Below are positions 8,265 to 26,137 of a stretch of DNA of 64,000 nt, piece by piece. The stretch is from Oxynema aestuarii AP17 (GTDB lineage Bacteria; Cyanobacteriota; Cyanobacteriia; Cyanobacteriales; Laspinemataceae). The stretch lies in assembly GCF_012295525.1 (NCBI RefSeq), contig NZ_CP051167.1:2294001-2358000 (forward strand), in the 5' to 3' direction. Within the stretch, counting starts at the first letter, position 1; every line of letters starts with the position of its first letter. The translations under genes and the position numbers were made by a program. The notes below the pieces were generated by a model. The model was not told the DNA's origin, ran no database searches, and worked only from the letters and a program-made list of their open reading frames with translations.

Positions 8265-9187
8265 AGGTCGAGACGATCGCGCAAGTTCGCCAGTTGTTGT
8301 CTGGCTTTGGTGTGGTTGGGGGTAATTCGCAAGGCGCGATCGTAAGATTCGATCGCCTCTTCGTAGCGTTCGAGTAATTCGAGGGCAACCCCCCGGTTGT
8401 ACCAGGCACTAGCCGGGCCGGTCGTTAAGCCCCAATCCCCCTGACTGGCTAAGGCGCGGTCGTAAGCGACGATCGCCTCTTCGTAGCGGCCTTCTTGGAG
8501 CAGGGCCGTGCCTTTGTTATACCAAGCCAAGGCAAATTGATCGTCGAGGGCGATCGCGCGATCGAAGGCATCGAGAGCATCTTCGCGACGATCTAAGCGC
8601 CACAACACCGAACCGCGATTGATGTGAGCGTCTGCGGCTCGATTCTCGCCCCAACTGCCATCTCCGGCCAAGGCGCGATCGAACGATTCTAGAGCGGCTT
8701 CGTTACGGTCGGTATCTTTGAGGATCGTGCCGCGACTGAGCCACGCGAGGGAGTATTGAGGGCGCAACTCCACCGCGCGGTTGAGTTCGGCGATCGCCTC
8801 GTCGTAGCGTTGTAACGCTGCCAAGCTCATTCCCCGACCGATTCGAGCATCCACATTATCCCCGTCGAGATCGACGGCGCGATCGTAAAGGTCCAACGCT
8901 GCATCGTACTTTTTAGAATTGAGCAAAAATTGCCCTTCCGAAAGCAAGGATTGCAACTCGCTCGGTTCTGCTGCTGGCGTCTCCGGCAGATCTTCGCTCC
9001 CAGGTTCCGGGGAAGGCACCGCCTCGGACTCCGGCTCGGGCGCCGCCGTCGGCATCGGCGTCGTCTCTTCATCGGTGACCTGGCCGGAATCCCGACTGCC
9101 CGTCGGATCGGTTTGAGCCCACACTGGAGAGGTCAAACCCGTCATCAGCGCTGCCATCATACCGATCCATTTAAAGGAGTTCCGCAT
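8261..9187 (-). CDS. Secreted tetratricopeptide-repeat protein
   Basis: 308 residues. Signal peptide ('WIGMMAALMTGLTSPVWAQT', cleavage likely after AQT/AWA region ~25), an acidic Pro/Glu/Ser linker (~30-80), then about six TPR units with repeating 'ALDLYDRAVDLDGDN', 'AIAELNRAVELRPQY', 'ALDAFDRAIALDDQF' and 'AIVAYDRALASQG'. Probably a periplasmic or envelope scaffold for protein-protein contacts; no enzymatic domain. Ends by stop-codon overlap with the beta-propeller gene. Partner unknown. Confidence 0.85.
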   Translation of the reverse strand: MRNSFKWIGMMAALMTGLTSPVWAQTDPTGSRDSGQVTDEETTPMPTAAPEPESEAVPSPEPGSEDLPETPAAEPSELQSLLSEGQFLLNSKKYDAALDLYDRAVDLDGDNVDARIGRGMSLAALQRYDEAIAELNRAVELRPQYSLAWLSRGTILKDTDRNEAALESFDRALAGDGSWGENRAADAHINRGSVLWRLDRREDALDAFDRAIALDDQFALAWYNKGTALLQEGRYEEAIVAYDRALASQGDWGLTTGPASAWYNRGVALELLERYEEAIESYDRALRITPNHTKARQQLANLRDRLDL

Positions 9188-9311
9188 CGCTCTAGCCTCT
9201 AGAAATCATCGGGTTTTCACAAACACAAAAAATTGTAACAATCTCTCGATCCCCTCGGCGCGTGTCACGATCGCCCCGGTGGGGGGGTGAGATCTGCTCC
9301 ATCGTTCGGGC

Positions 9312-10598
9312 TTATCCCGTAGCCTCCAAGGAAGAAGACTCGGCAATCGAACGGCGATCGCCTAGAGAGGTATTTGGGGAGAGGCGCCGCACGGGTAAAG
9401 TCACCGTCACCGTGGTTCCCACGTCGAGTTCGCTGTCAATTTCAATTTGTCCCCCGTGCAGCTCCACACAACGTTTGACAATCGCCAATCCCAACCCGGT
9501 TCCTTGAATCGTCGCAACGTTGCTGCCTCGCTGAAACGCTTGGAAAATAGCCCGTCGTTCGGTGGCAGGCACCCCGATGCCGCGATCGCGAACTTGCAAG
9601 CACACGATCGCCGAACAGGTATCGTCCGCAGGCTCTAACTGCGCTACCCCTCCCAAAATCTGGTAACGGTTCGCTTCCTGGCCGTCGCTGCCGAGATCCG
9701 CATCCTCCCGGTGGAGGTCGCGACAACGGACGATTAACTCGATCGCTCCTCCGCCGGGGGAGTATTTAATCGCATTAGACAATAAATTGGTTAAAATTTG
9801 TTGCAATAGTTGGCCGTCGAGTATTAAATTCTGGCAGTCCCCTTCAAAATTCAAGGCGATTTCGCGGCGGGGATCCCCCGCTTCGGCCACTAATGCCCGA
9901 CACCATTGTTCGAGATCCAAGACCAAAGGATTGAACTCCAATTGACCCGATTGCGCCAGATCGATCGACAATACATCGCGCACTAATTGACTCAAGTGCC
10001 CGGCAGCAGTTTGAATCCGTTGTAAATGTTTTTTTCTTTTGTCTTCACCCCACCTCGGCCAATAACATTCGAGCAGTTCTGCCGAGGAAATAATGGCTGT
10101 TAAAGGAGTTTGATATTCGTGAGAAATCGTCGTCACGATGCCCGAGCGCAAGGCATTGAGTTCTCGTTCGCGCTCCAACGCTTTGAGAATTTCTCGTTCC
10201 GCTTGCTTTTCCTGCAACAAACGCTGGACGCGCCTGCGTAACACGGCCCAGTGGATCGGTTTGGTGATGTAGTCCGTGGCCCCCACTTGAAAGGCTCGGT
10301 CTACGGAATCTTCGTCTTCCAAACTGGTGATCATTAAAATCGGCGTACTTTTAAGTTCCGAGACCGCTTGTATTTGCTGGCAACAGGCAAACCCATCCAA
10401 ACCCGGCATTCGCGCGTCGAGCAATACCATGTCGGGCTGAATTTGGCGGTACGCTTCAACGCCCTCCAATCCATTACTGGCTTCGGCGACGCGATACCCT
10501 TCTTTGATCATGGCGCGACGCAACATCATGCGAGTGGTGCGATCGTCGTCCACGAGGAGAATGAGGGGGGAGTGGGTCGGTGAAAAGTTAATATTCAT
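9312..10598 (-). CDS. Receiver-histidine kinase hybrid
   Basis: 428 residues, soluble. N-terminal receiver (phospho-acceptor Asp61 in 'VLLDARMPG', Lys in 'DYITKPI'), a coiled linker (~125-150), HisKA with His160 in 'TISHEYQTPL' (Tyr-Gln in place of the common Phe-Arg), and HATPase_c with the N-box 'LLSNAIKYSPGGG', 'DRGIGVP' and 'GTGLGLAIVKRCVELHGG'. This layout is common in cyanobacterial phosphorelays, in which an upstream kinase phosphorylates the receiver. About 70 extra residues lie between the N and G1 boxes ('CRDLHREDADLGSDGQ'). No paired regulator is adjacent on the same strand; the OmpR regulator at 11517 is divergent and is separated from it by an IS605 relic. Confidence 0.9.
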   Translation of the reverse strand: MNINFSPTHSPLILLVDDDRTTRMMLRRAMIKEGYRVAEASNGLEGVEAYRQIQPDMVLLDARMPGLDGFACCQQIQAVSELKSTPILMITSLEDEDSVDRAFQVGATDYITKPIHWAVLRRRVQRLLQEKQAEREILKALERERELNALRSGIVTTISHEYQTPLTAIISSAELLECYWPRWGEDKRKKHLQRIQTAAGHLSQLVRDVLSIDLAQSGQLEFNPLVLDLEQWCRALVAEAGDPRREIALNFEGDCQNLILDGQLLQQILTNLLSNAIKYSPGGGAIELIVRCRDLHREDADLGSDGQEANRYQILGGVAQLEPADDTCSAIVCLQVRDRGIGVPATERRAIFQAFQRGSNVATIQGTGLGLAIVKRCVELHGGQIEIDSELDVGTTVTVTLPVRRLSPNTSLGDRRSIAESSSLEATG

Positions 10599-11516
10599 AT
10601 TTCAAAAACTTGCCAGATTGACGAGGTTTTGGCCAATTGGTCGCTCTCCCCAAACGAGGCGATCGCGCCTCATGTGAATGGCAGTAGAAATCCGTAGAAC
10701 TCTATTATCTCTGGAATCTCCCTCAATTGCCTAGATTGGAATGGGCAGCAGCGATCGCTTCTTTCTTTTTAGTATGCCCTCGCTTGTGAGTTTGTTGGCC
10801 GTTCTCGATTTGACGAGAGTCGAGACCTGTTGTTAACCCTCTACCCCAGTTCACACTCAAGACCGAGATCGGGTCGAGCCTTGAAGTCGTTACGCAGCTT
10901 AGAAAGATCGTGACATGAGATTGACAATTCCCATGGATTTATCTCTAAATTCTTATAACTTCCTTCTCCTAGGAGATAAGATCGGGAGGCTCCCCGAGTA
11001 ACCTGTCCCGATTTGTGTGACGATGGGTAAAGCTCAGAGAGCAACCCGTCCTATCTTTTAAGGGCAGCGTTCTCGGGGGTTCCGCTCTTCCTGGGGGCTA
11101 GCTCGAATCGACTGGGGGCAAACGGCTCTGGCGATCGCATCTTTGGCTCTACCCTTACAGATTTCCTTTCCCCAAGAGATCGAATGGCTCGACTTCTCGA
11201 CCGCATGGGCGAGATCTTCCGCATTTAGAATGGCAAGATAGTGCTGAGGTAACCACCATTTTCGATGCTGATGCGACCTGCTAAACAAGGGGACTCGAAA
11301 CCTCCGAAGACCTCGGAACGATTTTCTGCCAAGCTGGGAAGCCCGCCTCGTATTCGGTAGGCTTGGGGTCAGGAAAATGTCACAATGCTGGATAAATGAT
11401 TGTTAGTGTTGTCCTGTTTTCGGGAAATCGTGTAAATTTCTCCAGTCTGGCATCGGCTCTGAGATGTCAGCGTCTTCGATCGTTCTTACCCAGTTCACAC
11501 CGCATTTGTTGTAGCT
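10599..11516. other. Intergenic region with decayed IS200/IS605 element
   Basis: ~900 nt without an intact gene. The right half ends in an IS605-like right end (11336-11383). The upstream plus-strand sequence may be a much-decayed tnpB 3' end, but stops occur in every frame and no zinc-finger or RuvC motif survives. Antisense frames at 10841-11288 show no family resemblance. Confidence 0.45.
11336..11383 (+). mobile_element. IS200/IS605-type right end (relic)
   Basis: GGGAAGCCCGCC..., an AAGCC/GGCTT hairpin, then ...AAAATGTCAC. The plan matches the relic at 14311-14357 (GGGAAGCCCGC...GGATGTCAC) and the right ends of cyanobacterial tnpB elements, where this segment forms the 3' part of the omega-RNA. 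It points toward the OmpR regulator that starts at 11517. Confidence 0.55.
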
Positions 11517-12236
11517 ATGGCTCCTGCCAAGATTCTTGTCGTTGATGACGATCCTGCCATCCGCAATTTGATCTATCGCTTTCTGAGTCAGCAAGAGTAT
11601 CAAATGGAGTCGGCAGAGGATGGAAAAAAAGCTCTAGAGAGTTTTGAAAAATTTAACCCCGATCTGGTGATTCTTGACGTTAATTTGCCGGATACCACCG
11701 GGTATCAGCTTTGTCAGGAAATGCAAAAACGCACGGGGGTTTTTGTCTTGATGCTGACCAGTCGCACCGATGAAGCTGATAAAATTCGAGGGTTTAATTT
11801 GGGGGCGGATGACTACATCACCAAGCCCTTTAGTCTGGTCGAACTCGGAGCCAGGGTGGGGGCGCTTTTGAAACGACAGCGTGTCGTCCAAACCGCCGAA
11901 CAGCCGTCTTTGACCTTCGGCGCGATGTGTATCGATCCGGTGCGTCGCGAGGTGACTCTCAACGAAAAACCTGTTTCTTTAACGGCTTTGGAATTTGATT
12001 TACTTTACTTTTTGGCCAGTCATCCCGGTCGTGTTTGGCGGCGATCGGAATTGTTACAGGAAGTTTGGGATTATGACTACGTGGGTGACCAGCGCGTGGT
12101 AGACGTTCATATCGGCCAAATCCGACGCAAAATCGAACCGGATACGGGGAGTCCTTCACTGATTCAAACCGTCCGAGGGGTGGGCTACAAGTTTGAGATT
12201 CAAAGTTCGGATCGATCGCCGGAAATGGAAGTATGA
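11517..12236 (+). CDS. OmpR-family response regulator
   Basis: 239 residues. Receiver ~1-122 with acidic pair Asp10-Asp12, phospho-acceptor Asp54 ('VILDVNLPD'), Thr/Ser switch ('MLTSRTD') and 'DDYITKPFS'. Winged-helix DNA-binding domain ~130-228 with 'LTALEFDLLYFLASHPG', 'LQEVWDYDYVGDQRVVDVHI' and 'TVRGVGYKFE'. A transcription factor of the PhoB/OmpR type. The sequence differs from RpaA and RpaB and no symbol is assigned. No kinase is adjacent on the same strand. The promoter region abuts an IS605 right end ~130 nt upstream. Confidence 0.92.
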   Translation: MAPAKILVVDDDPAIRNLIYRFLSQQEYQMESAEDGKKALESFEKFNPDLVILDVNLPDTTGYQLCQEMQKRTGVFVLMLTSRTDEADKIRGFNLGADDYITKPFSLVELGARVGALLKRQRVVQTAEQPSLTFGAMCIDPVRREVTLNEKPVSLTALEFDLLYFLASHPGRVWRRSELLQEVWDYDYVGDQRVVDVHIGQIRRKIEPDTGSPSLIQTVRGVGYKFEIQSSDRSPEMEV

Positions 12237-12822
12237 ATGCGAAGACCGAGCGGTTGCGGGGGGCGATCTCTGGAACCGTCTCAATCTTTGTGGGTTTTGC
12301 TGGGTGTCGGTCGGTATTTTGGGGTCGATCGCCGTTGGCGTCCGCGATCGGGTCTCGCTGCAATTTGCCCGAGATCGATTGACAATTTTACAGGGTGCAA
12401 TCGATGGGTTCAAACCGCAATTTCAATTATTGAATTAAGCTTTAAGGGTGTCAGCAAATTCGATGACAATTCGATCCAAATTCGAGCCGGACTCAGTAAT
12501 CTTCCAGAAAGTAAAACACGGATTTTTACCCCGATGCCACCGTTAATTTACCCCAAATTTTAGGGTGCTAGGGAACTTAAAAGATGCGATCGAACGGGGT
12601 TTTAAGATCGGATTTCACGACGTTCTACGATGTAAATGAAGGGGATGAAACGATCGAACGGCGAGATCGATCGGCGGGTTTTGATAGGAATTGTTGTAAG
12701 TTTTTTAAGTTGTGAATTTTTGATTTTCTAAATTCAATCGTAACTCTCAGGTCGTTGGCCTCGAAAACTGCTCCCTCGATCGGACAAACGAGCAGTTTTC
12801 GAGGCCAAAAACTTAGAAAAAG
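12237..12822. other. Intergenic region between convergent genes
   Basis: No convincing gene. Short frames directly after the regulator (12232-12563) have unusual composition and no resemblance to a family. Contains the long inverted repeat at 12755-12808. Confidence 0.5.
12755..12808. terminator. 19-bp inverted repeat, probable bidirectional terminator
   Basis: TTGGCCTCGAAAACTGCTC and its exact reverse complement, separated by a 16-nt loop, sit between convergent genes just 15 nt after the hemY stop. There is no U-tract on either strand, so ending transcription is inferred from position and stability only. Confidence 0.5.
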
Positions 12823-17021: not shown

Positions 17022-17420
17022 ATGAAAACTGTTCTCATCGTTGAAGATAATCCGATCAACGTCCAAGTTTTTTCCAAAATTTTGACCAAGCGAGGCGGTT
17101 TGGCAGTCAAACATACCGAAGATGTCGAAGAAGTGTTGCAAATTGCCCACACCAAAACAGCCGACGTCATTTTAATGGATGTGGCCTTGGCGAACAGTCG
17201 CTACCAGGGTCAACCCATCGACGGGGTGCAAATCACCCAAATGCTCAAAGCCGACCCCGCCACTGCGGCATTACCCGTGATTTTAGTAACCGCCAACGCC
17301 ATGGCAGGCGATCGCGAAGAACTGCTGGCGCAAAGTGGTGCAGATGGTTATATTGCCAAACCCGTGATCGACTATCAAGCCTTTTTATCGGAAATTCTGT
17401 CTAAAATCGATCCAAAATAA
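17022..17420 (+). CDS. CheY-like single-domain response regulator
   Basis: 132 residues, receiver only. Acidic pair Glu8-Asp9 ('VLIVEDNPINV'), phospho-acceptor Asp53 ('VILMDVALANS'), Thr in 'ILVTANAMAGDRE' and Lys in 'DGYIAKPVI'. A short insert ('ANSRYQGQPIDGV') replaces the usual MPxxDG turn. It has no output domain, so it acts by protein contact or in a phosphorelay. It lies 160 nt before the CHAT gene in the same direction and may belong to that cluster. Confidence 0.9.
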   Translation: MKTVLIVEDNPINVQVFSKILTKRGGLAVKHTEDVEEVLQIAHTKTADVILMDVALANSRYQGQPIDGVQITQMLKADPATAALPVILVTANAMAGDREELLAQSGADGYIAKPVIDYQAFLSEILSKIDPK

Positions 17421-17580
17421 CCTCGATCGAGACCCCCTCACTGGAGCGAGGGAAATTCGAGAGCCGAATTCGGGGCGATCGCACCAGTCCAAACCACCAA
17501 ATTTCAAGCCCTAGTGGCGTTGTCGTTGGTTTTGGCTAGAATCAGGACTCGACTACCCGACCCGACGGCTGAAAACGAGC

Positions 17581-20214
17581 ATGAATAAAGATCGACGATC
17601 GCACTGGACTCCTTGGCGGCGAAGACGGCGAACGATCGCCTCCATCTTACTCGCCTTTTTGACCTGCTTAATCCTAGTGAGTGAGGCTCGTGGAACCAGC
17701 AACCTGAATCTTCCTCCAGAATCGGCGATCGCCGTGTCCGAGTCGGTCGAAAACCCCCGGGAATTGTTCGCGAAGGGGCAGTACGCGCAAGCGGCGCGCT
17801 TGTGGGAACAGGCGGCCACTCGCGCAGACGATCGCCTCGATCGCGCCTTGAGTTTGACCTATCTGAGTTTGGCCTATCGCGAATTAGGGGATTGGTCCGC
17901 CGCGCGGGAGACGATCTCACGATGTTTTGAACTTCTCGAAACGTCGCCGTCGGGGGTTCGCGAAGCGTCTCCCCAGGAGAATCGCCGCGAAGCTGCCATT
18001 TTAGCGAAAGCGACCAACGCCCGAGCCTCGGTGTGGTTTGCCATGGGCGATCTCGAAGGGGCGGTTCAGACCTGGGAGTTAGCGCGCGATCGCTACGCGG
18101 CCCTCGGCGATCGCCTCGGGGTACTCGGCAGTCAAATCAACCAAGCACAAGCCTTGCAAATGTTGGGAGACTACCGACAGGCAAATCTACTGTTAGAAGA
18201 AGTAGAAACTCAACTCCAGCAACAGACCGATTTATCCCTGAGTGCGACGGGGTGGCAAAGTTTGGCGTTAGCCGTGCAGCACGCGGGGGAATTCGAGCGC
18301 GCTCGCGAACTGCTCGAAAAAAGCCATCAATTGTTCGAGCGCCTCAATTCTCCCAATCCCCTCGCCACCAGTTGGATCGATCGGGGTAACAACGCCCATT
18401 TGCTCGGCGACGACGACGGCGCGATCGCCTATTACCAGAAAGCCGCCGCGACGGCGACTCGTCCCTTATTACGGGTTCAAGCCAGACTCAACCACCTGCA
18501 TTTACTGATCCCCCAGGATCGCCATGCCGAAATCGAAGCCTTGTTAGCGGTTCTCGAACCGGAACTCAACGCCCTCGATGGGGGAGGACGGGAGGAAATT
18601 TACGCCCGCGTCAACTACGCGATCGCGATTTTAAACGATCCCCAACAGAAGTATTACGATCGCCTCGCCGACGCGGGCGAACGGTTAGGGCGATCCTTTA
18701 GAGAAGCCCGACAACTCGGCGATCCGATCGCCCAATCCTATACCCTCGGCACCCTCGGAGAGCTTTACGAACGTACCGGACAACTCGACAGCGCGCGATC
18801 GTTGTTCGACCGAGCCCTCGCTCTGGCGTTGCACAGTCACGCCGACCATATTGCCTATCGCTGGCAGTGGGGTTTGGGACGGGTGCTAGGGCGCACGGGC
18901 GATCTCGACGGGGCGATCGCCGCCTATGGCGAAGCGGTCAATACCTTACAATCCTTGCGCCGGGAACTGGTCGCTATCAGTCAGGAAGTCCAGTTTTCCT
19001 TCCGCGAACGAGTCGAACCGATTTATCGCGAATTTGTCGATCTGCTCCTGCAACCGAGACCCAATGGCGCTGCGATCGCCGTAGGGGAGATTCGCGAATC
19101 TCCCCTACGGCTCAAACAAGCCCTGAAAACCCTAGAAAACCTGCAACTGATCGAATTAGAAAACTTCTTGCAACAGCCGTGTTTGCAGGCGAAACCGCAA
19201 CCGATCGCGGGTCTCGACCGCCATGCTGCGGTGATTTATCCGATCTTGCTCGATCGCCGTCTGGCGATCGTCGTTTCCCTCCCGGACGGAACCCTGAGCT
19301 ATCACGAAACCCTCGTGTCCCAGACCGAAGTCGAGGAAACGGTCGAAGAACTGTTGCGATCGCTCAATCCGGCCCTTTCCGACCGCAAACGCCTGCAACT
19401 GTCCGAGCAACTCTATCGCTGGCTGCTCGCTCCCCTAGAACCCGAACTCGTTCGCGCCGAGATCGAAACCCTGGTGTTCGTCTTGGAAGGAGCGTTAAAA
19501 AATCTGCCGATGGCGGTTCTTTACGACGGCGAACGCTACGCGATCGATAAATACGCCCTCGCCGTGGCCCCGGGACTGCAACTACTCGGCGACACCTCCC
19601 TAACCCCCCATTCCTTACAGGTGATTGCCGGGGGATTGGCCCAAGGTCGGCGCGGCTTTTCTCCCTTACCGGGGGTCAAATTAGAATTAGAAAAAATTGC
19701 AGCCTATACCGAGACTCAAACCTTTCTCGACGAAGCGTTTACCTCGACGATGCTGCAAAAACAAGTGGAGGATTTACCCTTTCGCGTCTTGCATCTGGCA
19801 ACCCACGGCCAGTTCAGTTCTCGTCGGGAAGAAACCTATATTCTCACCTGGGACGACCGTCTCGATCTCGAAGAGTTCAGCCAACTTTTAGAAAGTCGTC
19901 AGGAGCCGTATAAAACTCCCATTGAATTATTAGTGTTAAGTGCCTGTCAAACCGCACTCGGGGACAAACGAGCGGCGCTCGGTTTGGCCGGGGTGGCGGT
20001 CAACTCCGGCGCCCGCAGTACGGTAGCGAGTTTGTGGTCCGTTCACGACGGCTCGACGGCGATGCTGATGGAAAAGTTTTACGAGTTTCTGGCTCGACCT
20101 CAAACCAGCAAGGCGCAAGCACTGCGTCAGGCGCAATTATTTTTAAAAGAACAGTCCTCATACGAGCATCCTTTTTATTGGGCGGCCTTCGTATTAGTCG
20201 GTCACTGGTCTTGA
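17581..20214 (+). CDS. TPR-CHAT domain protein (caspase-like protease)
   Basis: 877 residues. N-terminal signal/anchor ('TIASILLAFLTCLILVSEA', ~20-38) follows an Arg-rich start. About ten TPR units span ~60-470. The C-terminal CHAT domain (~560-877) carries the caspase-type dyad: His742 in 'LHLATHGQFSS' and Cys789 in 'LSACQTALG', followed by 'LAGVAVNSGARSTVASLW'. Such proteins are predicted cysteine peptidases with TPR sensing domains; the leader places it at or outside the plasma membrane. Two repeats are read in frame: a dispersed repeat (17952-17989, 'SGVREASPQENRREA') and a 34-bp palindrome (19078-19111, 'VGEIRESPLRLK'). It is followed by DUF928 and CHASE2-GGDEF genes. Substrate unknown. 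Confidence 0.92.
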   Translation: MNKDRRSHWTPWRRRRRTIASILLAFLTCLILVSEARGTSNLNLPPESAIAVSESVENPRELFAKGQYAQAARLWEQAATRADDRLDRALSLTYLSLAYRELGDWSAARETISRCFELLETSPSGVREASPQENRREAAILAKATNARASVWFAMGDLEGAVQTWELARDRYAALGDRLGVLGSQINQAQALQMLGDYRQANLLLEEVETQLQQQTDLSLSATGWQSLALAVQHAGEFERARELLEKSHQLFERLNSPNPLATSWIDRGNNAHLLGDDDGAIAYYQKAAATATRPLLRVQARLNHLHLLIPQDRHAEIEALLAVLEPELNALDGGGREEIYARVNYAIAILNDPQQKYYDRLADAGERLGRSFREARQLGDPIAQSYTLGTLGELYERTGQLDSARSLFDRALALALHSHADHIAYRWQWGLGRVLGRTGDLDGAIAAYGEAVNTLQSLRRELVAISQEVQFSFRERVEPIYREFVDLLLQPRPNGAAIAVGEIRESPLRLKQALKTLENLQLIELENFLQQPCLQAKPQPIAGLDRHAAVIYPILLDRRLAIVVSLPDGTLSYHETLVSQTEVEETVEELLRSLNPALSDRKRLQLSEQLYRWLLAPLEPELVRAEIETLVFVLEGALKNLPMAVLYDGERYAIDKYALAVAPGLQLLGDTSLTPHSLQVIAGGLAQGRRGFSPLPGVKLELEKIAAYTETQTFLDEAFTSTMLQKQVEDLPFRVLHLATHGQFSSRREETYILTWDDRLDLEEFSQLLESRQEPYKTPIELLVLSACQTALGDKRAALGLAGVAVNSGARSTVASLWSVHDGSTAMLMEKFYEFLARPQTSKAQALRQAQLFLKEQSSYEHPFYWAAFVLVGHWS
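17952..17989. repeat. Small dispersed repeat, copy 4 (inside CHAT gene)
   Basis: TTCGCGAAGCGTCTCC followed by AGGAGAATCGCCGCG, read in frame in a TPR linker. Same pattern as copies at 588, 2722 and 15001. Confidence 0.6.
19078..19111. repeat. 34-bp perfect palindrome inside the CHAT coding region
   Basis: GCCGTAGGGGAGATTCG followed without a spacer by its exact reverse complement, centred on TTCGCGAA. It is read in frame between the TPR and CHAT parts. Confidence 0.85.
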
Positions 20215-20365
20215 CAAAATTAAGCGCTTAGAATTGAGGAGTTAAGGAGGATCGATCGAGTAGGGCGATCGCCGATCTCCACGTCGGTGAAGTTGTAAAA
20301 CAAGTGGGACTTTAGAATCAGAATCTTTCATATAGTCGTTAACAAACCGTGTAAGGAAGAGGAAA

Positions 20366-21172
20366 ATGATGAGCCGTCAGTCAAAGGTTTGGTCTGCAAT
20401 CCTGCTCGGGATTGGACTGAGTATCGCTCCGATCGCGATCGCTCCAGTCTTGGCCCGACCCCTTGCGGTGGATCTGAATAGATTTACAGTATTGGGTTTT
20501 TTCGAGCCTCCCGGAGAAGGCGAACCGGAACAAACCGAAGGGGCCGGAACTCGTCCCGCTTCTGTGGGCCTGTGTCCGGGGGATCTCCCCACGGAAAACG
20601 CCTCGTTAACCCCATTAGTTCCCCATCGCGACCAAGCGTTGAGTGCGCGAGAACGTCCGACCTTCTTTGTTTACATTCCCGAAACCTCCGCCCGTCAGGC
20701 GGTGTTTACCCTGCGCGACGAGGGGGAAAGCTATTATTACGAGCAGTCGATCGCCATCGAGCGCTCCCCAGGAGTCATCGAAATTACACTCCCCGCCGAC
20801 GCACCGGGATTGGTGGCCGATCGCGATTACACCTGGTTCCTCAGCGTCGCCTGCGATCGCGCCTTGCGTCCCGGAGATCCGATGGTTTCCGGACATGTCA
20901 GACGGGTAATGGCGGATCCGTCACTCTCCAATCCCGGTCGCGAGACAAGCACTTCGGTTCCCCAGGAGGGCACCGCTTGGCACGCACAATTGACCCCTTA
21001 TTTGCAAAATCATTTGTGGTACGATGCGCTCGCGATCGCGGCCCAGTGGCGCCAGTCGCCAGCGACGGACAATCAAGATCGGATTTGGGAACAACTGCTC
21101 GAATCGGTCGGTTTGGAGAAGATAGCCGGAGAACCCAGGATCCCACTCAATGCCAGTTCTTCTCCTCGCTAA
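20366..21172 (+). CDS. DUF928 protein
   Basis: 268 residues. Signal peptide ('ILLGIGLSIAPIAIAPVLAR', ~11-31), then the DUF928 pattern 'DQALSARERPTFFVYIPE', 'VFTLRDEGESYYYEQSI', 'ITLPADAPGLVADRDYTWFL' and 'GHVRRV'. The family is mostly cyanobacterial and of unknown function; the predicted fold is mainly beta-strand, exported. It lies between the CHAT gene (150 nt upstream) and the CHASE2-GGDEF gene (21 nt downstream), so it is probably co-expressed with the latter. It may connect the periplasmic CHASE2 sensor and the TPR-CHAT protein; that is inference from neighbourhood only. Confidence 0.88.
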   Translation: MMSRQSKVWSAILLGIGLSIAPIAIAPVLARPLAVDLNRFTVLGFFEPPGEGEPEQTEGAGTRPASVGLCPGDLPTENASLTPLVPHRDQALSARERPTFFVYIPETSARQAVFTLRDEGESYYYEQSIAIERSPGVIEITLPADAPGLVADRDYTWFLSVACDRALRPGDPMVSGHVRRVMADPSLSNPGRETSTSVPQEGTAWHAQLTPYLQNHLWYDALAIAAQWRQSPATDNQDRIWEQLLESVGLEKIAGEPRIPLNASSSPR

Positions 21173-21193
21173 AATTCTCGGTATAGATAGAGC

Positions 21194-22966
21194 ATGTCAG
21201 TCGTGCGAGGCTTCAACAAGGATCGTTGGCAATACGGAGGGCGCGTTACTCTGACTAGTCTAATCGTCGCTACGTTAACCGTGGTGACCAGTGGACTCGG
21301 GGTTTTTGAATTTATCGAACTGAACCTTTTAGACCACTTTTTTCAGTGGCGATCCCTCGAAGTACCCGATCGCCGAATTACCCTCGTCACGGTGGACGAA
21401 GCGGATATCGAATTCTTACAAAAATGGCCGATGAGCGATCGCGTTTTGGCCGAGGCGATCGCCCATCTCAAAGTTTACAAACCTCGGGCGATCGGGGTCG
21501 ATCTCTATCGTAATTTGGCGGTCGAACCCGGTTCCGACGAACTTCAAGAAATTTACCGCTCGACACCTTATTTAATCGGTATTGAAAAAGTTGTCGGGAA
21601 CAAGATTCCCCCGGCGCCAACTTTGGCGCACTTAGAACAAATTGGTTTTTCCGATATCGTTTTAGATCCCGATGGAAAAGTACGGCGGCATTTAATGTCT
21701 ATTCATCGGAACGAGACGATGAAAAGTAGTTTGTCCGTTCAACTCGCCCTGTTGTATTTGAAAGCTGAAGGGATTACGCCGGAAATTGTCGATTCCAAGA
21801 CGAAAACTTATCGTTTGGGTCGGGCTGTTTTAAAACCTTTGTCCAGTCATGGCGGTGGCTACAGTAATATCGATACCGGGGGCTATCAAATGCTCTTGAA
21901 TTTTCGTGGCGATCGCGACCAATTTACCTGTATTTCCCTCACCGATGTCCTGGAAAATCGGTTTTCTCGGGAGTTAATCCACGATCGCGTGGTCTTGATC
22001 GGGGCGATCGCGCCGAGTCTCAAAGATATTTTCCACACCCCTTATAACACCAAAAATGCCACCTTTGACAACCGTTTGGCAATGGAAGGGCCGATCGTTC
22101 ATGCCAATGCGATCAGTCAATTACTCGGTGCTGCCCTGGACGGTCGTCCCCTCCTGTTAACGGTCAGTCAAATTCAGGAAAAATTATGGATTGTACTGTG
22201 GGCGGGCTTAGGTTCGATCGGCAGTTTTTTAGTATTAAATAGTAAGTTTTTCAAGAAAAAAAAGATCGGCATCGGTCGGATTTTACTGGCGGAAATTACC
22301 GTCGGCAATCTCGGCGCGATCGCCACGAGTTACTGGCTTTTTTTAAACGGTTGGTGGTTGCCGAGTTTTACCCCGGCGATCGCCTTGAGTGCGGCGGTGT
22401 TGGCCGTTGCTTTCGACTATACGCGACAGTGGAAAAATTTAGCTTTTATCGACGGACTGACTCAAGTCGCCAATCGGCGCTATTTTGACGAGTATTTACA
22501 ACAGGAATGGCGCCGTCATGCCAGCGATCGCAAAAGCTTATCTCTGATTTTGTGCGATGTCGATTATTTCAAACGTTATAACGATACCTACGGACATCTC
22601 GAAGGCGATCGTTGCTTGCAAGAAGTGGCACGGGCGATCGAACGGGCCGTGAGGGCCGGAGATTTTGTCGCCCGCTACGGGGGCGAGGAATTTGCGGTAA
22701 TTTTAGGCAATACCGATGCCCAAACCGCTCTCGGCGTGGCCGATCGCATCCGCACTCGCGTGCGATCGTTGGCACTTCCTCATGCGACCTCGGAAATTAA
22801 CGAGGTGGTCACCCTCAGTTGTGGGGTCGCCACGTCGATCCCCGATTGGCAATCGGACCCCAGCGATCCGATCGCGATCGCCGATCGCGGCTTGTACGAG
22901 GCGAAGCGACAGGGTCGCGATTGCGTCTCCCTCGGCTCTCCCCCCGTCGGCGATCGCTGCAAGTGA
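21194..22966 (+). CDS. CHASE2-GGDEF diguanylate cyclase
   Basis: 590 residues. N-terminal membrane segment (~17-40), extracytoplasmic CHASE2 sensor (~45-320, with 'VTVDEADIEFLQKWPMSD', 'RDRVVLIGAIAPSLKDIFHT'-like features), three membrane segments (~330-410) and a cytoplasmic GGDEF domain (~420-580). The active site is GGEEF at 496-500. The product-inhibition site RxxD is present (RAGD, 487-490), as are 'DVDYFKRYNDTYGH' and the C-terminal 'ADRGLYEAKRQGRD'. It should make c-di-GMP in response to an envelope signal and be feedback-controlled. Most CHASE2 proteins in such clusters have kinase or adenylate cyclase outputs; here the output is c-di-GMP. Confidence 0.93.
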   Translation: MSVVRGFNKDRWQYGGRVTLTSLIVATLTVVTSGLGVFEFIELNLLDHFFQWRSLEVPDRRITLVTVDEADIEFLQKWPMSDRVLAEAIAHLKVYKPRAIGVDLYRNLAVEPGSDELQEIYRSTPYLIGIEKVVGNKIPPAPTLAHLEQIGFSDIVLDPDGKVRRHLMSIHRNETMKSSLSVQLALLYLKAEGITPEIVDSKTKTYRLGRAVLKPLSSHGGGYSNIDTGGYQMLLNFRGDRDQFTCISLTDVLENRFSRELIHDRVVLIGAIAPSLKDIFHTPYNTKNATFDNRLAMEGPIVHANAISQLLGAALDGRPLLLTVSQIQEKLWIVLWAGLGSIGSFLVLNSKFFKKKKIGIGRILLAEITVGNLGAIATSYWLFLNGWWLPSFTPAIALSAAVLAVAFDYTRQWKNLAFIDGLTQVANRRYFDEYLQQEWRRHASDRKSLSLILCDVDYFKRYNDTYGHLEGDRCLQEVARAIERAVRAGDFVARYGGEEFAVILGNTDAQTALGVADRIRTRVRSLALPHATSEINEVVTLSCGVATSIPDWQSDPSDPIAIADRGLYEAKRQGRDCVSLGSPPVGDRCK

Positions 22967-22985: not shown

Positions 22986-24875
22986 TTAACTGGGGGAACC
23001 TGCCGGACCGTCAAAGCCCAAATACCCTCGGGGCGTCACGATCCAGTCTCCATGCCGTCGCGTGCTGCGGTTGCCGATTAACACGGTGGTTAACATGTCG
23101 ATCTCACAAGTGAAGAGGCGATCGAGGGTCGTCAGCTCGATGCGCTCGTCTTCGCGATACGCCGATCGCACCAACGCCACCGGGGTATCCGGCGATCGCT
23201 CCTCTAGCAAGATTTGCCGCGCGATCGCGATCTGTTCCGTGCGGCTGCGCGATTTCGGATTGTACAGGGCCACGACAAAATCCGCCGCCGCCGCCGCTCG
23301 CAAGCGCTTCTCGATGACCTCCCACGGCGTCAGTAAGTCGCTCAAGCTGATCGCACAAAAATCGTGCATTAACGGCGTTCCCACCCGCGCCGCCGCCGCG
23401 TTGACGGCGCTAATCCCGGGCAACACTTCGACTTTTGGCGTTTTACCGTCCCAACCCTTCGCGGCGAGCTGTTCTAACACCAATCCCGCCATGCCGTAAA
23501 TTCCCGCATCTCCCGAGGAAATCACCGCCACTTTTAAACCCCGATCGGCTAAGGCGATCGCCCGTTCGGCCCGTTCTCGTTCTCGGGTAATCGGCAAGGA
23601 TTCAACGATTTGACCGGGACGCAATAAGGGAGATACTAAGTCTACGTAAAGAGTATAACCCACGATCGCATCGGCTCCGGCGATCGCCATTTGAGCGGCG
23701 GGGGTCATCAGCTCCAGGGAACCCGGCCCGGTGCCGACGAGCCACAACTGACCCGGGCGATCGCTGTATTCCCGTCGTGCACGGGAGATCGCCACCGTCG
23801 CCGCCCCCGGTTCGCCGTCGATGCGGCAGATTTGCTTGGACACGACCAGCGCTTCGGCCCATTCGCTGGCTCCGGCGGCCCTCAATGCTGCGGCTTCCGC
23901 CACGCTGGGGGTGCCGACTTCAGCCTCGACGACGGCGGAGGGGGTGGGAACGGCGATCGCTCGCAACTCCGACCCCTCGAAGGTTTTTAAGGGCCAGTGG
24001 CGATCGCGACTCAGTTCGAGTAAGCCGATTTCGTCGGCTTTGAGGGCGATCGTGGCCAGTCCGGCGATCGCCTCGGGCGCCAACCCCGCTTGGGATAAGG
24101 CCCGCTCGATACCCGTCTCGATAACGCGAGCTGAGGTTCCCCGTTCGCAGCCGACCCCCACCCACAACACACGCGGATGCCACCGGATTTCGGGGATCTC
24201 GGGTTCGGGATGGGTCGGGACGCGGCGATCGCTTATCCAGATGCGGGCGCCAAGGTCGGCAACGGGGGGCATCGGCTTCAATCCCTCGCCGACAAAGGGA
24301 TGAGATGGCGGCAGATGCTGCTGCCAAATCTTCCAGCCGACCTCCTGCACGACTTCGACCGCTTCAGAGCGCGCGATCGCCGCACTCGCCGCATTCCAGT
24401 CCCCGACCCCCCGTTGCCAGCCGAAGGGTTCGCCCAAAACATCCGCACCGGGCAATCCCAGGGCGTTCGATGCCCCGGTCAACACTGCGGTGGCGCCCAG
24501 TTGGCGGGCGATCGACTCGGCGAGGCGATCGGCCCCCCGTTGATGTCCGCCACACAAGCTGATGACGTATTTACCCCCTTCGTCGATAACGACGATCGCC
24601 GGATCTTGTTGTTTGTTTTGTAATAAGGGGGCGATCGAGCGCACGACGGCCCCGGTCGCCAAGCAAAAAACAAGGGCGCGGGTCTCGTTCCAGATCGCGC
24701 TCAAATGGTCTTTGAGAGAACCGGAGTAAACCCGAGTACGGGGCATTTCGCCGAGGGCTTCGCCGACCCAAAGGGTCATCTGAGGATCTTCCCCCAGCCG
24801 TTGCAAGCATCGGACGCCTCGTGGGGTGGTCGCTATGGCTGCAATGGGTTGAAATTCTTCTAATACAGAGGCCAT
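22986..24875 (-). CDS. cobJ: CbiG-CobJ fusion, precorrin-3B C17-methyltransferase
   Basis: 629 residues made of two cobalamin enzymes. Residues ~1-340 are CbiG-like (N-terminal 'RALVFCLATGAVVRSIAP', 'VISLCGGHQRGADRLAE'; C-terminal 'VGVGCERGTSARVIE', 'EIGLLELS'). Residues ~375-620 are the SAM methyltransferase CobJ/CbiH with 'LWLVGTGPGSLELMTPAA', 'DAIVGYTLYVDLV', 'VISSGDAGIYGMAG' and 'LPGISAVNAAAARVG'. It performs ring contraction at C17 in corrin synthesis. The CbiG-CobJ fusion is usual in cyanobacteria. cobS follows upstream in the same direction. No B12 riboswitch box was recognised nearby. Confidence 0.93.
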   Translation of the reverse strand: MASVLEEFQPIAAIATTPRGVRCLQRLGEDPQMTLWVGEALGEMPRTRVYSGSLKDHLSAIWNETRALVFCLATGAVVRSIAPLLQNKQQDPAIVVIDEGGKYVISLCGGHQRGADRLAESIARQLGATAVLTGASNALGLPGADVLGEPFGWQRGVGDWNAASAAIARSEAVEVVQEVGWKIWQQHLPPSHPFVGEGLKPMPPVADLGARIWISDRRVPTHPEPEIPEIRWHPRVLWVGVGCERGTSARVIETGIERALSQAGLAPEAIAGLATIALKADEIGLLELSRDRHWPLKTFEGSELRAIAVPTPSAVVEAEVGTPSVAEAAALRAAGASEWAEALVVSKQICRIDGEPGAATVAISRARREYSDRPGQLWLVGTGPGSLELMTPAAQMAIAGADAIVGYTLYVDLVSPLLRPGQIVESLPITRERERAERAIALADRGLKVAVISSGDAGIYGMAGLVLEQLAAKGWDGKTPKVEVLPGISAVNAAAARVGTPLMHDFCAISLSDLLTPWEVIEKRLRAAAAADFVVALYNPKSRSRTEQIAIARQILLEERSPDTPVALVRSAYREDERIELTTLDRLFTCEIDMLTTVLIGNRSTRRHGDWIVTPRGYLGFDGPAGSPS

Positions 24876-25003
24876 GGTTGGCGATCGCTCCTCAAAATAG
24901 TTTGCTCAGTTCGCGATCATTTTTAAGCATGAAGGGTTCGCAGGGGAAGCCGTCAGAGGTTAGCGGGTGCAAGGACAGCGCCACTTTCTCAATCTCAAAT
25001 CTC

Positions 25004-25801
25004 TCAAAATCCTGCCAAAACGCATAATAATAGGGCTTCGGTCCACTCGACGACGGCGCCGTAAGTATCTCCGGTATGACCGCCGAGTTGCTGGTTAAAC
25101 CACGCTCCGGTGAGAATGGCGATCGCGCTGCCCGCACTCGCCATCCCGATCGCCAAACTCCAGTCCCCACCGCCGACCGACCCTTGAATGACGCTCAGGG
25201 CGATCGCGATCGCCAAACCGGGCAGTAAATCCCACGGCGAGTGCATCGATTCTTTATGAAAGGCTCCTTTTCCCGTGGCTTTCAAGTACGGATAGCGGGC
25301 GATCGCCACCAATTGTCCCCAGCGTCCCCAGGTGGCGGCAGCCATCAGGGCGATCGCGCGGGAACTGTCCAAATCGTTGAGGGCGGCGGTTTTCAGCAAG
25401 ATGATGGCGATCGCTGCCATCGTGCCGAAGGCGCCCGTCCGGCTGTCTGCCATCACTTCCAATCGGCGTTGGGGATCCTGGACGGCGAGTCCGTCGGCGG
25501 TATCCATGGCTCCATCGAGGTGCAGTCCCCCGGTGATCGCGATCCAAATGCCGACGATTAAGACGGTGCGCGTTAAGATAGGCATGTCGAGCAGATGCAA
25601 CAGGGCATCGAACAAGGCTAGCAAGGCTCCGACGCCCAAGCCGACGGCGGGAGCGAAGCGGGCAATACCGCGAAACTCTAGGGTCCAACTGAGCGGCACG
25701 GGCAAACAGGTATAAAAGGCGATCGCGGCGGCGAGTCCCGCCCCCAATTTTTTGCTGGTTTGGACGATCGCCTCCCAAAAGTGAGGCTTGTATTTATCCA
25801 T
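25004..25801 (-). CDS. cobS: Adenosylcobinamide-GDP ribazoletransferase (cobalamin synthase)
   Basis: 265 residues from ATG at 25801 ('[20 protein letters not shown]'). Membrane protein with ~6-8 hydrophobic segments and the CobS signature '[16 protein letters not shown]', '[14 protein letters not shown]' and '[10 protein letters not shown]'. It joins adenosylcobinamide-GDP and alpha-ribazole in the last step of B12 assembly. The frame is open to 25921, but the longer N-terminus has no family match, so the start at 25801 is preferred. It lies 130 nt upstream of the cbiG-cobJ fusion on the same strand. Confidence 0.92.
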
Positions 25802-26137
25802 TTCAGGCTCTCGATTTCTCACTACACGAGTTGTAGACCTCACCCGAGCGGCGACGGTGTTCTCCCCCGCCGATGTCCGTTGATGAGTATTCCTGCTGGA
25901 TAGGGCGATCGGGTCGCCCACGGGCGATCGAATCGACTTGCGATTTTTCAGCCATTTTACGGATACCTCCCATCGAGAACCTGTGCCAGAATTGTATCGA
26001 TCGTGCCGGGTCTAAATTCGATCCGGTTCGCCATCGAAACACAAAAACTTTTAACGACTCCCTCTTGATGCCCGCCATCAAATTCTTTTCTGAATTTTGG
26101 AGGGGTAAAGATTGTACACCAAAGGTGGTTTTTTACC

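Follow-up and report, generated by a model that had tools for sequence, protein, structure and literature searches.

Several bacterial systems have been described in which a CHASE2 sensor is encoded with a linked envelope partner. Here we compare them with a locus in the cyanobacterium Oxynema aestuarii AP17, whose genome is a single contig of 6.36 Mb. The window that we analysed is the 64,000-nucleotide stretch at 2294001-2358000, and the coordinates of its own genes count from its first letter. Three plus-strand genes at 17581-22966 encode a TPR-CHAT protein, a DUF928 protein and a CHASE2-GGDEF protein, and we lean towards reading them as one instance of an envelope-sensing module that recurs in cyanobacteria. 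What we say of the published systems, here and below, rests on parts of the text of each cited paper.

In Burkholderia contaminans, the BiofilmReg operon encodes a LysM-FecR protein and a CHASE2 kinase, and no biofilm formed when the regulator gene was interrupted (PMC5192318). As at our locus, the CHASE2 sensor is encoded with a predicted exported partner, and the operon also has a response regulator. It differs in that the partner is FecR and not DUF928, the output is a histidine kinase, and the operon as described in the text available has neither CHAT nor two-partner secretion (TPS) genes (PMC5192318). No LysM/FecR gene lies beside the CHASE2 gene of the window, and none of the nine window proteins that we scanned matched FecR in Pfam. 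In Sinorhizobium meliloti, the CHASE2 cyclases CyaD1, CyaD2 and CyaK are fed by the outer-membrane protein NsrA. As in our proposal below, an external protein signal passes from the outside in, in that case through an outer-membrane protein (a barrel) to CHASE2; the available text differs in making no mention of CHAT, DUF928 or TPS (PMC7529298, PMC13001267). Campylobacterota have CHASE2-FecR-TPR clusters with a CHASE2 cyclase, which differ from our locus in having a phosphodiesterase as the fourth gene and, in the text available, no CHAT or DUF928 (PMC9239204). Two cyanobacterial enzymes are CHASE2-GGDEF proteins like that of the window: Leptolyngbya Dgc2 suppresses motility and biofilm formation (PMC10581220), and a variant of Anabaena Alr1219 without CHASE2 makes cyclic di-GMP (c-di-GMP) in vitro (PMC13075795). 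They differ in that no periplasmic partner appears in the available text, and Dgc2 has a PAS domain (PMC10581220, PMC13075795). The signal that CHASE2 detects is stated there to be unknown (PMC10581220, PMC5192318).

The TPR-CHAT protein resembles Csx29 of Craspase and separase in having TPRs followed by a CHAT domain, in its His/Cys dyad and in the Foldseek match of its model. Known Csx29 and separase proteins act in the cytoplasm or nucleus, whereas the window CHAT protein has an export-type N terminus and its gene is linked to that of a membrane sensor. The LapA-LapG-LapD system combines a surface adhesin, a periplasmic cysteine protease and a membrane c-di-GMP protein. The likeness to our locus is in outline only, namely a surface protein, a protease and a membrane protein. 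The protease is of another family, and the membrane protein here would make the messenger and not bind it, so that the direction would be outside-in. Against the LapD model, the window CHASE2-GGDEF protein scored 44.8 bits (cut-off 1020) over its GGDEF part only, and we do not class it as a LapD protein.

A preliminary description of this DNA had joined the three genes and a CheY-like gene in one system, and had staked that reading on the neighbourhood being conserved beyond close relatives. For CHAT, DUF928 and CHASE2 it is. These genes adjoin one another on plasmids and in many cyanobacterial genera, among them Oscillatoria, Laspinema, Moorena, Microcoleus, Geitlerinema, Leptolyngbya, Gomphosphaeria and Planktothrix. 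A scan of named genomes for DUF928 gave 60 loci, whose neighbours we annotated with profiles made from the AP17 domains. The scan profile was built from eight closer DUF928 sequences, the 12 divergent paralogues being too variable, and the 60 loci lean to one DUF928 clade; the neighbours played no role in their selection. At least 6 kb upstream and at least 3 kb downstream were present for 38 loci. Within 6 kb of DUF928 in these full-flank loci we found CHAT in 32, CHASE2 in 34 and TPS in 24; 22 loci have all three genes and three loci have none of them, and 30 of the 38 have CHAT, DUF928 and CHASE2 in that order on the same strand. Pfam confirmed the profile calls in the subsets that were scanned, which include the window proteins where present (DUF928 40/40, CHAT 30/30, TPS 20/20, CHASE2 25/25).

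Copy numbers also rise together. Across 39 genomes, the numbers of DUF928 and CHASE2 correlate with a rho of 0.955 (0.89 as a partial correlation on genome size), and with one genome per family rho is 0.88 (n=26). For DUF928 and TPS, rho is 0.92. A relative of the window DUF928 protein was found in 208 of the 243 genomes searched in the order.

On plasmids, the best CHASE2 match lies within 3 kb in 14 of 20 DUF928 records. According to public annotation, CHAT, DUF928 and CHASE2 adjoin one another on named plasmids from Gloeothece citriformis, Planktothrix agardhii (where ShlB is present too) and Picosynechococcus 7003; the gene row on the last reads DUF1822, CHASE2, DUF928, CHAT. The 32 plasmid records with CHASE2 comprise five that are non-cyanobacterial, four of which we examined, and 27 that are cyanobacterial, six of which we examined. 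DUF928 adjoins CHASE2 in five of these six, three of them with CHAT, and does not in Pseudanabaena 7367. In three of the four non-cyanobacterial loci (Eleftheria, Ruegeria, C. metallidurans), a FecR gene lies just ahead of the CHASE2 gene, with an overlap of a few bases. We found no FecR beside CHASE2 in the fourth, on a Cupriavidus sp. EM10 plasmid. There a CHASE2 histidine kinase adjoins a response regulator and pelG, an exopolysaccharide exporter gene (locus L217), which by gene content is another putative link of CHASE2 to surface or biofilm genes. AP17 itself has a CHASE2-cyclase gene without DUF928 (L063:8764-11911) that adjoins a FecR-domain gene, and FecR is thus predicted to be an alternative CHASE2 partner in this genome.

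Within AP17, the TPR-CHAT/DUF928/CHASE2-GGDEF set is one of about sixteen paralogous modules. The genome has 20 DUF928, 22 CHASE2, 47 CHAT and 19 TPS matches, with four ShlB open reading frames (ORFs) above cut-off, and for 16 of the 20 DUF928 genes the nearest CHASE2 gene is no more than 8 kb away. Nine loci carry TPS, CHAT, DUF928 and CHASE2; three, the window among them, carry CHAT, DUF928 and CHASE2 and no TPS; and four carry DUF928 and CHASE2 only. CHAT, DUF928 and CHASE2 stand as the parts first proposed, and what had been overlooked is the TPS exoprotein, absent here and present in the nine sister loci. None of the 19 TPS matches falls within 2294001-2358000, and all six genome matches to the TpsB/ShlB transporter lie outside the window. 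Random placement of the genes (2000 times) would put DUF928 within 2 kb of CHASE2 in 0.39 cases, with a highest value of 4, and we observed 14 of 20. For DUF928 within 2 kb of CHAT, the random placements gave 0.75 with a highest value of 5, and we observed 10 of 20. Under circular shifts, the six pairings of DUF928, CHASE2, CHAT and TPS averaged 0.2-2.4, where we observed 9-16; because near-zero shifts were included, the maxima of this control equal or exceed what was observed for some pairs and say little.

The paralogues of DUF928 and CHASE2 also diverge together (Mantel r 0.48, p 0.0004, n=16), and without loci L051, L053, L055 and L056 the correlation is 0.36 (p 0.02, n=12). Several of the parts are fused. 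Six of the 19 TPS exoproteins have a CHAT domain in the same ORF (L157, L159, L160, L162, L164 and L040), in products of about 1300-2900 aa with the TPS domain N-terminal and CHAT C-terminal, and these are probably secreted CHAT proteins. Two ORFs join CHAT and CHASE2 (L055:10690-13005 and L056:10730-13159), and the CHAT part of both keeps the His (FAGHS) and the Cys (FNSC). Both fusion ORFs adjoin DUF928 and DUF1822-type genes. One further ORF joins TPS and ShlB. Another arrangement is seen in L043 (genome positions 302000-321999), which has tandem DUF928 genes at 8980-9795 and 9918-10718, ShlB at 10777-12591 and no CHASE2; the tandem pair also adjoins an ORF of 2408 aa for a TPR-glycosyltransferase.

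The four plus-strand ORFs in the window, their domain calls and the gap of 21 nt between the DUF928 and CHASE2 genes were confirmed by ORF coordinates and Pfam. The CHASE2-GGDEF gene (21194-22966) encodes 590 aa, with CHASE2 at residues 27-341 (Pfam, 4.7e-61) and GGDEF at residues 417-576 (8e-53). Its hydrophobic segments lie at residues 23-41, 331-349 and 389-407. The active-site motif GGEEF covers residues 496-500 (22679-22693); the inhibitory RxxD motif reads RAGD and covers residues 487-490 (22652-22663). The presence of both had been noted previously. With these domains, membrane segments and motifs, the protein is a predicted CHASE2-GGDEF diguanylate cyclase.

Taking c-di-GMP as the output of the system as a whole, which had been suggested, does not hold up. 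The CHASE2 proteins of the named loci carry a C-terminal adenylate cyclase, GGDEF, histidine kinase or mixtures of these by Pfam, and AP17 alone has GGDEF, GGDEF-EAL, cyclase, kinase and AAA-linked forms. We therefore rejected c-di-GMP as the defining output. In some loci (L101, L103, L151) a CHASE2-GGDEF gene and a CHASE2-adenylate cyclase gene stand in tandem, and two second messengers are predicted from one locus. Because the outputs vary on one type of sensor, the constant core would be the periplasmic side and not c-di-GMP.

The TPR-CHAT gene (17581-20214) encodes 877 aa. A TPR superhelix (Pfam TPR_12, 8e-29, and the AlphaFold2 model) lies N-terminal to the CHAT domain at residues 607-874 (Pfam, 3.9e-59). 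The alignment of CHAT domains places the catalytic-type His742 at codon 19804-19806 and Cys789 at 19945-19947, where the dyad had been expected, and the two residues align in all 55 CHAT domains of DUF928/CHASE2 loci. Both CHAT and TPR were matched by Pfam in all 30 proteins of the CHAT alignment, the window protein included. By its domain order and His/Cys motif the protein is a TPR-CHAT protease, with proteolysis as a prediction. In a tree of CHAT domains (two duplicates dropped, 86 to 84, and one partial copy left out), most cluster proteins fall in one large group, which holds other CHATs too; AP17 locus L054 and Planktothrix locus L152 fall outside it. The AlphaFold2 model has a mean confidence (pLDDT) of 82.6. 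Among its best Foldseek matches in the PDB, Craspase Csx29/TPR-CHAT (8eey_B, E 4.7e-14) and human separase (9hma, E 3.6e-12) predominate; the global TM-scores are modest, about 0.25-0.5 by query length.

The window CHAT protein has a hydrophobic segment at residues 18-36, and that of the DUF928 protein is at residues 11-29. A strong hydrophobic stretch in the first 90 residues marks 46 of the 47 CHAT proteins from clusters and 54 of 80 DUF928 proteins, compared with 93 of the 321 other ORFs that are 250 aa or longer, in a test that uses mechanical ORF starts and says nothing of whether the segment is cleaved. At a lower cut, 71 of 80 DUF928 proteins and 118 of 321 other ORFs passed. Export or anchoring looks general for the CHAT and DUF928 proteins of these clusters, judging from their N termini.

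The DUF928 gene (20366-21172) encodes 268 aa (Pfam DUF928, 4.4e-46). Its AlphaFold2 model (mean pLDDT 77.6) has a signal-like N terminus, an Ig-like beta-sandwich at about residues 80-183 and a C-terminal helical part at 201-246. The DUF928 profile gave no match better than E 0.79 to PDB chains. For the model, Foldseek ranks a carbohydrate-binding module first (E 1.6e-4), and VIA-align ranks MtxA (4z29) first, with 151 residues aligned between 80 and 257 and both parts covered. The remaining 49 among the VIA-align rows listed align at most 104 residues. In magnetotactic bacteria, mtxA is followed by a CHASE2-cyclase gene, and MtxA has a signal peptide and Ig-like and TPR domains (PMC4439547). 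It differs from DUF928 in an extra N-terminal region and in having no detectable sequence similarity, and no CHAT or TPS appears in the text available (PMC4439547). The match gains weight because the position of mtxA before a CHASE2-cyclase gene is a fact independent of the structure comparison. We treat a relation between DUF928 and MtxA as a lead from modelling.

From these observations we propose the following. DUF928 would be the cognate periplasmic partner of CHASE2, contacting its domain and conveying the signal. CHAT, at the periplasm or cell surface, may cut or bind a TPS exoprotein of the filamentous-haemagglutinin type, or DUF928. The state of the surface protein would alter the partner that reaches CHASE2, and CHASE2 would then turn its fused cytoplasmic output on or off; the window has a diguanylate cyclase there, and its sister loci have an adenylate cyclase or a histidine kinase. 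The window copy would signal through c-di-GMP, and its exoprotein, if any, would be encoded elsewhere in the genome, or another stimulus would be sensed. Conserved linkage, co-variation, fusions, export-type N termini and intact active-site motifs, all read from sequence, are what this proposal is built on. Among its steps, we infer that the contact between DUF928 and CHASE2 is the best supported and cutting or binding by CHAT the least. More tentatively, a separase/Csx29-type protease could act as an envelope transducer that cuts a TPS protein or DUF928, whose resulting state is the CHASE2 ligand, and cyanobacterial DUF928, magnetotactic MtxA and the FecR-type proteins of other proteobacteria could form one functional class of periplasmic CHASE2 ligands; we think this version is possible and rather doubtful.

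A number of observations weigh against the envelope-sensing module. Four of the 20 AP17 DUF928 genes adjoin neither CHAT nor CHASE2, and four of the 38 full-flank loci have neither nearby, one of these with TPS. The 60 loci include near-identical ones (Laspinema, Moorena) and are partly non-independent. The window locus has no TPS gene, and the test for an N-terminal hydrophobic stretch was passed by only 10 of 46 TPS proteins, or by 29 of the 46 with the lower cut. Gaps of 160 nt between the REC and CHAT genes and 151 nt between the CHAT and DUF928 genes lie upstream of CHAT and DUF928, so separate transcription is possible. The co-variation of CHAT with DUF928 (r 0.31, p 0.08) and with CHASE2 (r 0.29, p 0.15; n=12 for both) falls short of significance, which makes CHAT the weakest link in the proposed chain. 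For MtxA, the Z of 9.3 comes from a method in which a best Z of 7-8 is common in models without a true relative. The match is structural only (rmsd, or root-mean-square deviation, 4.2 Å at 7% identity), MtxA is absent among the best 50 Foldseek rows, and a sequence search with DUF928 did not find it at E 1. Under standard conditions, deleting mtxA was without a phenotype (PMC4439547).

The proposal also has to be weighed against a different role for the same genes. CHAT and DUF928 may mainly be factors for the maturation or retention of TPS exoproteins (processing, folding, anchoring), with the CHASE2 enzyme only tuning expression or export and no signal passing via DUF928. The single-ORF fusions of TPS and CHAT, in 6 of 19 AP17 TPS genes, fit this, as do the two DUF928 genes that adjoin a TpsB (ShlB) gene without CHASE2 and the CHAT genes that adjoin ShlB genes in AP17 (L170) and Planktothrix. 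However, the linkage of DUF928 is tightest to CHASE2, including at four AP17 loci without an adjoining CHAT or TPS, its divergence tracks that of CHASE2, and a maturation factor at the window locus would have no TPS gene beside it. We consider this explanation improbable on the whole.

Far less likely is a programmed-death or anti-phage defence module with the CHAT protease as the killing effector. The Csx29/separase fold of the CHAT model would suit such a role, and proteins with caspase domains and CHASE2 occur in proposed prokaryotic death or conflict systems (PMC8195603). But PADLOC has no model that fits the CHAT, DUF928 or CHASE2-GGDEF protein, and the cluster CHAT proteins have an export-type segment and are linked to secreted exoproteins. 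The REC gene matches part of SduA only (7.8e-8). A defence or programmed cell death system is thus unsupported by the PADLOC comparison of the three proteins. We give just as little credence to functionally separate neighbours kept close by duplication of one block: many loci are indeed paralogous, with neighbours at times inverted or reordered, but copy numbers still rise together when each of 26 families is represented by a single genome, and the recurrence of the set in differing orders and strands over distant genera and plasmids, with fusions, makes block duplication alone insufficient.

The CheY-like gene (REC, 17022-17420, plus strand; 132 aa; Pfam Response_reg 2.4e-20) does not belong to the envelope-sensing module. 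The original four-gene system holds for CHAT, DUF928 and CHASE2, which are recurrently linked, and fails for this gene, whose homologues have another neighbourhood. We looked at 17 places with REC homologues, in stretches of 5-20 kb. One is a second AP17 copy, and the other 16 come from relatives, 15 of the 18 searched being represented. The homologues in relatives are 63-71% identical to the window protein. We recognised REC at all but one of the 17 places, mostly adjoining a gene of about 800-880 aa, and none of the 17 has CHAT, DUF928 or CHASE2 nearby. AP17 has another such gene at genome position 1289475, of which the window gene, at about 70% identity, is a second copy; the surroundings of the gene at 1289475 resemble those in relatives, whereas the window copy adjoins the CHAT gene. 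It is a bystander, and we rejected it as a member.

On the other side of the locus, a CbiG/methylase fusion gene and the CobS cobalamin gene lie on the minus strand at 22986-25921, running towards the CHASE2 gene and separated from it by 19 nt. These are ordinary metabolic genes. Scans for promoters (5 found, 3.4 in shuffled sequence) and terminators (14 found, 9.5 in shuffled sequence) were indecisive.

Single elements of the module, and CHASE2 with a linked envelope partner, were already known; the set of TPS, CHAT, DUF928 and CHASE2 appears to be new. The system had been put forward as one without a prior description, and within the open-licence PMC literature we likewise found none of this combination, the exception being a single cluster that holds CHASE2 and DUF928 genes. 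One paper of that literature mentions DUF928 by name. The cluster of CHASE2 and DUF928 genes is in 'NOSP7', which we take to be Nostoc punctiforme. It lies among WD40 genes and was called species-specific among seven (PMC5587647).

A linked partner with a signal-like N terminus makes DUF928 a direct candidate for the ligand or adaptor of CHASE2. If our proposal is true, it would give a function to DUF928 and suggest a role for MtxA, a protein whose structure is solved and whose function is unknown. It would also mean that a protease of the caspase/separase type operates in the bacterial envelope, tied to surface proteins. In the more tentative version, the ligands would plug into interchangeable c-di-GMP, cyclic AMP and phosphorelay outputs. 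One sensor type on several outputs in a single genome offers natural paired comparisons.

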